Of a stretch of DNA of 64,000 nucleotides, positions 3,017 to 23,749 are shown one piece after another. The DNA is from Neisseriaceae bacterium (GTDB taxonomy: Bacteria; Pseudomonadota; Gammaproteobacteria; Burkholderiales; Chromobacteriaceae), in contig JAIYAC010000007.1 of assembly GCA_027489245.1 (NCBI GenBank), positions 124,001 through 188,000 of the forward strand, written 5' to 3'. Position 1 is the stretch's first letter. Every line of letters begins with the position of its first letter. Position numbers and translations under genes: made by a program. The notes under the pieces were generated by a model. That model did no database searches. It saw nothing but the letters and a program-made list of their open reading frames with translations, and was not told where the DNA came from.

Positions 3017-4348
3017 ATGGGCCGCAAGTATTTTGGTACCGATGGTGTGCGTGGTGAGGTAGGCAAGGCACCGATTACCCCCGAGTTCGTATTGCGCCTG
3101 GGCTACGCAGCCGGCAAGGTGCTGGTTGACCACGCCAACGAAGAACACCCTACCGTTATCATCGGCAAAGACACGCGTATTTCCGGCTATATGCTGGAAG
3201 CAGCCCTGCAAGCCGGCTTTACCGCCGCCGGGGTGAACGTACTGCTGACCGGCCCGCTGCCCACGCCGGGTATTGCCTACCTGACCCGTGCGCTGCGCTT
3301 GTCTGCCGGCGTGATGATTTCCGCTTCGCACAACCCCTACCAGGATAACGGTATCAAGTTCTTTGCCAAAGGCGGCAAAAAGCTGGACGACGCGCTGGAG
3401 CTGCAAATCGAAGCCATGCTGGATTCCCCGATGGAAACCAGCCCGTCGCGCGAGCTGGGCCGTGCCAAGCGCATCGAAGGCGCTGATCTGCGTTATATCG
3501 AATTCTGCAAGAGCACCTTCCCCAACGAGCTGGACCTGAAAGGGCTGAAGCTGGTGGTGGACTGCGCCCACGGTGCCACCTACCACATTGCCCCGAAAGT
3601 GTTTCACGAGCTGGGCGCTGAGGTCATTGCCATTGGCGACAAGCCCAGCGGTTACAACATTAACAATGGCGTGGGTGCCACTCACCCGGAGGCCATCGCC
3701 CAGGCGGTGCAAGCGCATGGTGCCGACTACGGCATTTCGCTGGATGGCGACGGCGACCGCCTGATGATGGCCGACCGCCATGGCAATGTGTACGACGGCG
3801 ACCAGCTGATTTATGTGATTGCCAAGGCCCGCGCAGCGCGCGGCCAACTTGGCGGCGGTGTGGTGGGTACGGTGATGACCAATATGGCCATGGAGCTGGC
3901 ACTGCAGCATCAGGGCGTGCCGTTTGGCCGCGCCAAGGTGGGCGACCGCTACGTACTGGAGATGCTCGGTCAAAACGGCTGGCAGGTAGGCGGCGAAGCC
4001 TCTGGCCATGTGCTGTGCCTGGACAAACACTCCACCGGCGATGGCATTATTTCCGCGCTGCAGGTGTTGGCCGCACTGCACGAGCTGAAAGTGGGGCTGG
4101 CCGAGGTATGCGCTGACTGGACGCCCTTCCCGCAGAAAATGATCAATGTGCGCTTGCACGGCCAGGACTGGAAAGCGGCGAGCGCGGTGCTGCTGCAAGA
4201 GGCCGAGCAGGCACTGGCCGGCCATGGCCGTGTGGTGCTGCGCCCATCCGGTACCGAGCCGGTCGTGCGCGTGATGGTCGAGGCCGATGATCTGGCGCTG
4301 GCTACCGACTGGGCCAGCCGCATCGCAGCGGTGATCGAAGCGGCTTAA
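3017..4348 (+). CDS. glmM: Phosphoglucosamine mutase
   Basis: Interconverts glucosamine-6-phosphate and glucosamine-1-phosphate on the way to UDP-GlcNAc, for peptidoglycan and lipopolysaccharide. N-terminal [10 protein letters not shown], the phosphoserine loop ISASHNPY (101-108), metal loop DGDGDR and the C-terminal phosphate loop [12 protein letters not shown] are all present. The ATG at 3017 follows an AAGGAAGG ribosome-binding site at 3007-3013 and gives 443 aa, close to the E. coli enzyme (445). The upstream in-frame start at 2996 would add seven residues with no family support. Confidence 0.97.
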
Positions 4349-6226: not shown

Positions 6227-6448
6227 TTACTTGTCCAGCAGGCGGCTAACCAGCGCGCGTACGCGCGGGGCGCCAATCAGTACCAGGGGGAAGGCGCAGC
6301 ACCATGCCAGTAGCCAGGCGTGCAGCCAGCGTGCAGGAAAGCCTGCATCCAGGCCGGTATTGATGCCGGTGAGAATGCCGGACATGAAAAACGCCATATA
6401 GCCGGACATGAACAGGGCAAAAAGCAGGGTGTGTTTACGGGTAGGCAT
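6227..6448 (-). CDS. DUF2798-type small membrane protein
   Basis: A 73-aa protein with two hydrophobic helices (about residues 7-28 and 40-61). The second, rich in Trp and ending AFPLVLIGAPRVRALV, fits the DUF2798 family of two-helix inner-membrane proteins of unknown function. It starts at the ATG at 6446-6448; no strong ribosome-binding site is visible. It lies downstream of another small minus-strand gene, beyond that gene's terminator-like hairpin. Confidence 0.7.
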   Translation of the reverse strand: MPTRKHTLLFALFMSGYMAFFMSGILTGINTGLDAGFPARWLHAWLLAWCCAFPLVLIGAPRVRALVSRLLDK

Positions 6449-6497: not shown

Positions 6498-6773
6498 CTA
6501 CCCTTGCATGTGCAGGGTTATTGGCTGGCGCTGGCGAAACGGCAGGCGTAAAAAAACCGGGCCGCAGCCCGGTTTGCCGGCAGTGCCTTTCTGTGTGTCT
6601 TGGCACTGCGTATCAAGGGTATGGTCATGCTGGCTGTCGTACCAGTCGTCCTGCTCGGCCAGCAGGTGTTGCTTGCCGGCAAAGCGGGCGCTGCTCTGGC
6701 TGCGCTGGTGGGCGCCGCCTTTTTTCAGCAAAGGGCTGTGCGCAAACGGGTTGCGCGGTTTCAGGGTGCTCAT
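6498..6773 (-). CDS. Small basic protein whose frame overlaps a terminator
   Basis: A 91-codon minus-strand frame starting at the ATG of 6771-6773, with AGGAG 5 bases upstream (6779-6783). The N-terminus (KPRNPFAHSPLLKKGGAHQR) is basic and looks like a small conserved proteobacterial protein, but I cannot name the family. A DDWYD motif sits near residue 42. A classic terminator (6549-6575) lies inside the last third of the frame, 51 bases before the TAG, so many transcripts would end without a stop codon after about 73 codons. E. coli arfA is built this way. The sequence itself is not recognisably ArfA. Confidence 0.55.
   Translation of the reverse strand: MSTLKPRNPFAHSPLLKKGGAHQRSQSSARFAGKQHLLAEQDDWYDSQHDHTLDTQCQDTQKGTAGKPGCGPVFLRLPFRQRQPITLHMQG
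6549..6575 (-). terminator. Terminator inside the small basic gene
   Basis: On the minus strand: AAACCGGGC (6567-6575), loop TGCG, GCCCGGTTT (6554-6562), then a continuing T-run down to 6551. It has a strong G/C stem with a U-tract. The reading frame is open straight through it. Confidence 0.8.
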
Positions 6774-6794
6774 GCTTGCTCCTGTGGCTTAAGT

Positions 6795-6820
6795 CAGGTT
6801 GGCCGCATGCGGCCAACCTG
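6795..6820. repeat. Perfect 26-base palindrome of two GTTGGCCGCA words
   Basis: Two words meet head to head with no loop (cores at 6799-6807 and 6808-6816), extended by CAG/CTG on each side. It lies 7 bases after the udk stop (minus strand) and 22 before the next start. The position suggests a terminator-like role, but there is no T-run on either strand. Confidence 0.75.
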
Positions 6821-6826
6821 GGGGTG

Positions 6827-7450
6827 TTAGCCGGCCTGTTGAATCAGGCTGGCGACTTTGGTGGTGATGATATCCACCGCCGGGTCGTTGGCGCCGTGCG
6901 GCAGGATCACGTCGGCAAAGCGTTTGGTGGGCTCGATGAACTGGTTGTGCATCGGGCGCACGGTGCCCAGGTACTGCTCGATCACATTGTCTGTGGTGCG
7001 GCCACGTTCGGCAATATCGCGCTTCAGGCGGCGGATAAAGCGCACGTCCGGGTCGGTATCCACAAAAATCTTCAGCGACATCATGTCGCGCAGCGCAGCA
7101 TCGTACAGGGGGAACAAGCCTTCGATCACGATGACTGGCGCGGGCTGCACGGTCACGGTGGTGTCGGCGCGGGTGTGGTTGGAAAAGTCATACACCGGCA
7201 TCTCGATGGCGCGGCCGTTACGCAGGTCGTCGATGTGTTCGATCAGCAGTGGCCAGTCAAAGGCGTGCGGGTGGTCGTAGTTGGTGCTCAGGCGCTGTTC
7301 AAACGTGAGGTGGCTTTGGTCGCGGTAGTAGTAGTCCTGCACGATGACCGCGGCCATCTCGGTGCCGATGGTTTCCAGCACCTTGCGGGTCACCGTGGTT
7401 TTGCCGCTGCCGCTGCCGCCAGCGACGCCGATAATGAACGGTGTCGACAT
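6827..7450 (-). CDS. udk: Uridine kinase
   Basis: Phosphorylates uridine and cytidine in pyrimidine salvage. The 207-aa protein starts STPFIIGVAGGSGSGKTT, with a P-loop at about 10-17, followed by QDYYYRD and the NYDHPHAFDW nucleoside-site motif; E. coli Udk is 213 aa. The ATG at 7448-7450 is preferred over an upstream in-frame start at 7486 because AAGG precedes it and the P-loop then sits at the normal distance from the N-terminus. It is separated from the isc operon by a terminator. Confidence 0.96.
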   Translation of the reverse strand: MSTPFIIGVAGGSGSGKTTVTRKVLETIGTEMAAVIVQDYYYRDQSHLTFEQRLSTNYDHPHAFDWPLLIEHIDDLRNGRAIEMPVYDFSNHTRADTTVTVQPAPVIVIEGLFPLYDAALRDMMSLKIFVDTDPDVRFIRRLKRDIAERGRTTDNVIEQYLGTVRPMHNQFIEPTKRFADVILPHGANDPAVDIITTKVASLIQQAG

Positions 7451-7619
7451 AATAACCTTGCCTGAATGTGAAAAAAAACGCGCCATTCTAATGACTTGGC
7501 GCGCTGGCCACCACTATTTTTGTCAGTCTTGGCACAACATGCCAAAGGCAACACCGGCCGGGCCACGGAGCCTGCGCTGTTTATAGCATTTGCCCGGCTC
7601 TTTTCCTGGCCAGAATGAC

Positions 7620-23715: not shown

Positions 23716-23749
23716 AGGTTGGCCGCGCCTTAACTGTCGCGGCCAACCT
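23716..23749. repeat. Inverted pair of GTTGGCCGCG variants
   Basis: 12-bp arms AGGTTGGCCGCG / CGCGGCCAACCT with a 10-base loop, in the convergent gap between rlmK and the GNAT gene. These are one-base variants (final G) of the main word. The same gap has another imperfect inverted repeat with ends GATGCT/AGCATC (about 23643-23715). Either could terminate rlmK; no clear T-run. Confidence 0.6.

Follow-up and report, generated by a model that had tools for sequence, protein, structure and literature searches.

A small-protein family with recurrent in-frame terminators and a probable role in ribosome rescue in gamma- and betaproteobacteria

Introduction

To our knowledge, nonstop-regulated backup genes are known in only a few places, i.e. 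arfA and brfA. For brfA of Bacillus subtilis, a terminator is reported within the coding region of 71 codons, from which a product of approximately 62 aa is expected (PMC6881298); the same paper calls BrfA, ArfA and ArfT unrelated in sequence. A further report describes cleavage of the arfA hairpin by RNase III, assigns the KGKGS motif of ArfA to the mRNA channel, and presents arfT as having no terminator ahead of its stop (PMC6299226). A wider ArfT family has been claimed in PMC6514570. Ribosome rescue is also combined with RNA repair in the rtcB2-prfH operons, which encode an RNA ligase and a release factor acting on damaged ribosomes (PMC9223846, PMC1586002, PMC6514570).

The subject of this study is a small gene, designated X, which is located behind udk in a Vogesella-like genome. 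The window referred to below is the whole stretch of 64,000 nucleotides that was analysed. A sequence-only reading had described X as a 91-codon minus-strand frame with a good AGGAG site, carrying a complete terminator ahead of its own stop codon. In our view X represents, with a probability of about 0.6, a new, partly nonstop-regulated and probably ribosome-rescuing protein family, which is often coupled to RNA repair.

Results

Gene X and the terminator within its frame

The features of the locus are listed in Table 1. Both the frame and its AGGAG site were confirmed by the sequence and by homologues. X is a real gene, since homologues (E < 1e-9) were found in 14 of 61 relatives, the own genome included. 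The gene upstream of it, which we take to be udk (uridine kinase), has its protein start probably at 7450, and the small ORF behind X perhaps encodes, as we assume, a DUF2798 protein. The X protein carries a net charge of +7 in residues 1-39 and of -5 in residues 40-73. Its AF2 model is weak (pLDDT 60), with a helix predicted at low confidence for residues 26-48.

Table 1. Features of the X locus in the window.
Feature	Position	Strand	Basis or remark
X ORF, 91 codons (91 aa), ATG start	6498..6773	-	ORF and homologues
Conserved core of X, codons 1-46	6773-6636	-	homologue alignment, dN/dS
X codons 75-91, 3' of the terminator, no protein constraint		-	dN/dS
Shine-Dalgarno sequence AGGAG of X	6779..6783	-	sequence
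Stop codon TAG of X, probably absent from most transcripts	6498..6500	-	
Predicted terminator stem-loop AAACCGGGC(TGCG)GCCCGGTTT within the X ORF	6554..6575	-	-14.6 kcal/mol
Run of seven T	6550..6556	-	probable mRNA 3' end
udk (presumed), directly 5' of X, same strand	6827..7486	-	
Small ORF (73 aa) behind X, same strand, membrane-bound by appearance	6227-6448	-	
Inverted repeat pair AGGTTGGCCGC/GCGGCCAACCT between udk and X	6796..6819	.	window repeat count

The complete terminator noted in the earlier reading was indeed present inside the frame, its stem ending 53 nt ahead of the TAG codon. A transcript ending at this hairpin would have no stop codon, and, with the mRNA 3' end placed in the T run, the last codons translated would be ..GPVF. 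RNA folding of positions 6540-6600 yielded a z-score of -2.3, and 4 of 200 shuffled sequences folded equally well. The hairpin was absent from the list produced by a simple terminator scan of the window, because the scan requires five T behind the stem, whereas here four of the seven T lie behind it. Taken together with the comparisons described below, the predicted terminator inside X is beyond chance.

The inverted repeat located between udk and X belongs to a dispersed set. The 11-mer GCGGCCAACCT has 16 exact matches in the 64 kb (0.07 expected), T preceding it in 13 of the 16, and these matches form two inverted pairs (6796-6819 and 23716-23749) and 12 single sites. Its first 10 bases were found in 13 of 13 loci of the genus Vogesella and in 0 of 5 Aquitalea/Chromobacterium loci checked. 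GCGGCCAACCT thus looks like a genus-specific DNA-uptake-type sequence.

Hairpin and selection in close relatives

The search of 37 genomes of the own family, Chromobacteriaceae, revealed 14 carriers of X: 8 of the 13 genomes of the own genus (Vogesella), three of genus g6 and three of genus g7 (Aquitalea and Chromobacterium). Behind udk of the five Vogesella genomes without a match, no trace of X was seen by eye. All 14 carriers have an in-frame terminator ahead of the stop, in four different sequences, and the same was observed in 34 of 34 loci of the Vogesella/Aquitalea/Chromobacterium type (overlapping named loci included). The hairpin reads CCGGGC-TGCG-GCCCGG in Vogesella and AAAGGCCGCT-TCCC-AGCGGCCTTT in Aquitalea, and two further sequences are present in two groups of Chromobacterium. 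In L009, L013 and several Aquitalea/Chromobacterium relatives, a second, weaker terminator-like hairpin was seen 50-55 nt before the main one, in the loose scan only.

Alignment of the 14 protein sequences revealed 19 invariant residues (M1, T3, K5, P6, R7, N8, P9, A11, K17, K18, G19, G20, A21, H22, S27, R30, A39, E40 and W44), and the core motif can be written as RNPxAxxPLLKKGGAHxxSxxxxR. For five Vogesella sequences, the dN/dS values, which are pairwise sums and thus not independent, amounted to 0.14 for codons 1-46 (the core), 0.47 for codons 47-65 (a linker) and 1.46 for codons 75-91 behind the hairpin; codons 66-74, i.e. the hairpin itself, displayed no change of any kind, which leaves their dN/dS undefined. 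The value for udk among four of the same genomes was 0.05. Protein-level selection on X stops at the hairpin.

The hairpin is, moreover, conserved in differing registers. In Chromobacterium, where the loop may have 4 or 5 bases, the 3' arm is consequently read in one of two registers, namely frame 2 (six loci) or frame 0 (three loci), and the reading frame is open each time. A similar situation was found in genus g217, where three loci have the arm in frame 1 and one has it in frame 0, again with an open frame each time; in the g217 locus L170 the hairpin sequence is present but does not pass the strict scan. All 19 pairs of the Chromobacterium stem are kept in the seven sequences compared, two of them being altered on both sides. 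None of 500 shuffles attained the five double-changed cells observed, and no slid version of the stem had any; for the number of double-changed pairs, 219 of 500 shuffles did as well.

Distribution of family X

Family X extends to other gamma- and betaproteobacteria. A core profile detected it in 28 of 369 genomes of the class sample (E 0.01). With a broader profile, 32 of the 369 were found, 27 of them at E-values of 1e-7 or better, and a profile search of the phylum identified X in 3 of 289 genomes, the own genome included. Scanning of named contigs gave 56 loci, including those of Vogesella, Aquitalea, Chromobacterium, Microbulbifer, Arenicella and Rhodocyclales.

X matched no family of Pfam or NCBIfam, and nine further members compared with both databases produced just three weak matches, far below the cut-offs. 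X had no match in PADLOC, and the protein of the window (P0001) had no phage relative. Comparison of the X profile with PDB revealed no credible relative; no BrfA chain was among the matches, BrfA being presumably present in PDB. Searches of the open-licence literature showed no description of the family.

Hairpins in the whole family

Among 39 hand-chosen lineage representatives, a strict terminator located wholly before the stop was found in 9, compared with 1 of 233 control ORFs (Fisher p 1e-7), and hairpins at least as stable as -12 kcal/mol were found in the ORF tail of 17, compared with 16 of 233 (p 4e-8); four representatives were from the own family, without which the counts are 5 of 35 and 13 of 35, respectively, and the scan thresholds were not blind, since they had been fixed after the family had been seen. 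The hairpin remained below the -12 kcal/mol threshold in 22 of the 39 representatives. As controls we used ORFs of at least 120 aa from the same loci, after removal of those overlapping family X, with the last 150 nt examined (up to the last 180 nt for the representatives). Of two earlier terminator scans, one was too permissive, as it marked 104 of 352 control ORFs, and the other too strict. A list of 343 ORFs of 120 aa or more, some of them still belonging to family X, included 29 with a terminator within 120 nt behind the stop.

Outside the own-family group, in-frame terminators were identified in 6 of 62 loci (L040, L047, L051, L052, L116 and L085, the last being a near copy of L040). Other members, e.g. 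L053, L061, L090 and L123, have strong in-frame hairpins without a T run, which, by analogy with arfA, may be cleaved by RNase III. Codon-shuffle z-scores of the hairpins missed L012 and L051, whose hairpins lie upstream of the 130 nt covered. In Arenicella (L041 and L089) the stop is an ordinary one, with a terminator approximately 70 nt further on. Ordinary stops were likewise observed in L044, L048, L175 and L176, in Thiotrichaceae (L094, L114), in the Rhodocyclales type and in the Acinetobacter member. As these distant members demonstrate, the nonstop design is repeated, but not universal, in family X.

The earlier reading had made its case depend on whether the hairpin is conserved, and on homologues not ending before it. 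Conservation held in 14 of 14 own-family carriers, but the hairpin is absent from some distant branches; similarly, none of these 14 sequences ends before the hairpin, but such homologues do exist in Arenicella (L041, L089) and, as judged by eye, in Acinetobacter (L199). The putative nonstop design itself, which had been likened to that of arfA and brfA, is strongly supported by the diverse in-frame terminators, by the loss of constraint behind the hairpin and by the frame shifts.

Genes adjacent to X

In many lineages, X follows the RNA ligase gene rtcB on the same strand, in the arrangement rtcB-X or rtcB-U-X, where U denotes a further gene. The neighbour in L116 is clearly RtcB (PF01139, E 2.8e-128), and the distances from rtcB to X are 34 nt (L040), 17 nt (L053), 47 nt (L061), 140 nt (L090), 33 nt (L116) and 6 nt (L123). 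RtcB was also detected near X in L089, L091, L094, L114, L171, L172 and L176. In four records of Acinetobacter baumannii the same X is present behind rtcB; in L199, the one region opened, X (approximately 3695-3853) starts 3 nt behind rtcB with no annotated feature beneath, and its ordinary stop is followed by a terminator-like hairpin, as judged by eye. The lineages with rtcB-X are not independent counts, because transfer may explain them.

Among the 27 class carriers (those of the 369 genomes with E-values of 1e-7 or better), RtcB is encoded upstream on the same strand in 10, with U in between in three of them, and approximately 2 kb downstream of X in one (G299), while two (G112, G257) retain a C-terminal RtcB remnant alone. 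In 14 of the 27, RtcB was not found, the searched flank being short in G330 (1.5 kb) as well as in G092 and G241 (contig ends); two of these 14 (G095, G250) have U. Within the window, rtcB, U and arfB are all absent. The Vogesella loci that were read, over up to 6 kb, contain no rtcB near X, and the 12 kb surrounding X in a single genome each of Aquitalea and Chromobacterium contain none either. No X-like ORF was seen in the 400-500 nt after rtcB of Methylomonas and Thiodictyon plasmids, and a different gene is present behind rtcB in Allochromatium. The two RtcB proteins tested, of L116 and L040, scored 151.5 and 163 bits against TIGR03073, i.e. below its cut-off of 271.8, and the X-linked RtcB therefore appears to represent a branch other than RtcB2.

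U is a protein of approximately 315 aa with the motif LIEEIQSDW, encoded in L041, L042, L045, L047, L050, L091 and L172 either in between rtcB and X or, with no rtcB in view, ahead of X. It had no Pfam match over the cut-off and no match in NCBIfam or PADLOC. Its AF2 model is fair (pLDDT 75.6), and the weak top PDB matches are GNAT acetyltransferases, none of them significant.

Two further neighbours are rescue genes. In G257 (L052/L193), arfB is located approximately 220 nt before X, with a 40-residue RtcB remnant in between; the arrangement gives the appearance of a replacement of the ligase gene by arfB. No arfB was present within 1.5 kb of X in four other genomes of the same family. In G075, X has the tmRNA gene ssrA as a neighbour at a distance of 158 nt, encoded on the opposite strand.

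Other rescue systems in the carriers

The own genome contains tmRNA (predicted tag ANDETYALAA) and also ArfB. ArfA (PF03889) was found over the cut-off in none of the 61 relatives, including 0 of 13 genomes of the own genus. In the class sample, 6 of 369 genomes have it, all outside the 27 carriers of X; this lack of joint occurrence says little, because only 0.4 joint genomes were expected. In genus g87, two genomes have both ArfA and ArfB, one has X but lacks both of them, and a fourth (G449) has no X.

In Vogesella, ArfB was detected over the cut-off in 11 of 13 genomes. The two without it (G001, G010) have X, and all five genomes without X have ArfB. In the own family, however, G023, G027, G028 and G036 have neither X nor ArfB over the cut-off, and class-wide ArfB (E of 1e-15 or better) is present in 11 of 27 carriers of X versus 177 of 342 non-carriers, so that there is no clear complementarity between the two.

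Discussion

From these observations we infer that X is probably a rescue factor. Transcription of X would end at the in-frame terminator, ahead of the stop codon, and selection appears to treat the part behind the terminator as untranslated. Ribosomes reaching the nonstop 3' end would normally be handled by tmRNA/SmpB, and X tagged and destroyed, as suggested by the reports on arfA and brfA (PMC6881298, PMC6299226); with trans-translation overloaded, X would, on the same model, escape and accumulate. Judging from the design of the gene, its neighbours, and the size and charge of the product, this short basic protein would then serve as a backup factor that rescues stalled ribosomes. The rescue role gains weight because of the neighbours, which are RtcB in many lineages, arfB in one and ssrA in one. 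As X follows rtcB in many relatives, the backup is probably coupled there to the repair of cleaved RNA by ligation, in the manner of rtcB2-prfH.

A more far-reaching proposal, for which we would not quite offer even odds, is that X is an undescribed, widespread and partly nonstop rescue factor of gamma- and betaproteobacteria and that it makes up, together with a separate RtcB branch (at times with U), a second, independent kind of RNA-repair/ribosome-rescue operon, in which arfB has replaced rtcB in G257. For the genus studied, the design of X points to a backup gene where ArfA over the cut-off is lacking (0 of 13 genomes), and X could explain the backup of trans-translation in the Vogesella strains without ArfB (G001, G010).

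The main alternative, which we nevertheless regard as rather unlikely, is that X is under the same nonstop control but is a helper of RtcB (a cofactor, or an adaptor to ribosome or RNA) instead of a rescue factor, its design serving to sense an overload of trans-translation and thus an abundance of cleaved mRNAs. It would fit with RtcB being the commonest neighbour of X, with X having no release-factor match, and with the ordinary stops of the RtcB-linked L041, L060, L094 and L199. A helper of RtcB fits less well, however, with the absence of rtcB around X in the window and in the Vogesella, Aquitalea and Chromobacterium loci described above, with the presence of arfB and ssrA as neighbours, and with the fact that the known genes of nonstop design, arfA and brfA, encode rescue factors.

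The rescue role could also be that of ArfA itself, in a very diverged form, a reading suggested by the like size, basic character and gene design, and by the PLL(R/K) of X, which by eye resembles PLFR of ArfA. The absence of a PF03889 match, the profile probability of 0.6% and the lack of KGKGS make such an origin very unlikely. It is highly improbable, too, that the nonstop peptide is a decoy or regulatory element which loads tmRNA and whose sequence is unimportant: X is short and seems dispensable, not being detected in five of the 13 Vogesella genomes, but its core is under purifying selection (dN/dS 0.14, with the 19 residues invariant in 14 sequences) and is retained in branches without the hairpin. 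Least probable of all is an ordinary operon terminator that falls by chance in an open frame, the protein being made from readthrough mRNA, since terminators, although common near gene ends (29 of 343 ORFs behind the stop), precede the stop in just 1 of 233 controls, and in X the in-frame hairpin recurs in different forms, protein constraint is lacking behind it, and the frame shifts through a conserved hairpin.

Comparison with known systems

X was rejected as ArfA (no PF03889 match, none over the cut-off in the 61 relatives), as ArfB (no match to NF006718 in the NCBIfam search) and as PrfH (no release-factor match in Pfam; no class-I release factor was matched by X or by nine further members). 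The initial impression that X is not recognisably ArfA agrees with the comparison to six ArfA sequences (hhalign probability 0.6%, E 0.11) and with the alignments, in which KGKGS is replaced by KKGGAH or a similar sequence. X thus probably represents a new small-protein family that is, by the tests made, neither ArfA, ArfB nor PrfH, the comparison with ArfT and BrfA being by description only.

In its organization, X closely resembles arfA of E. coli: both are small basic proteins whose frames run into a hairpin or terminator ahead of the stop, and backup under tmRNA control is the logic proposed for X. It differs from arfA in having no detected sequence similarity, in lacking KGKGS and in being often linked to rtcB. 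With brfA it shares the terminator inside the ORF and a comparable length, and with ArfT of Francisella the very small size and, presumably, the backup rescue role. The rtcB2-prfH operons differ from the X loci in the release factor, for which X has no match, and in the RtcB branch, and X also occurs without rtcB; in both, however, rtcB is closely followed by a gene for stuck ribosomes, if the role proposed for X is correct. X would then add a partner other than a release factor to RNA repair by RtcB.
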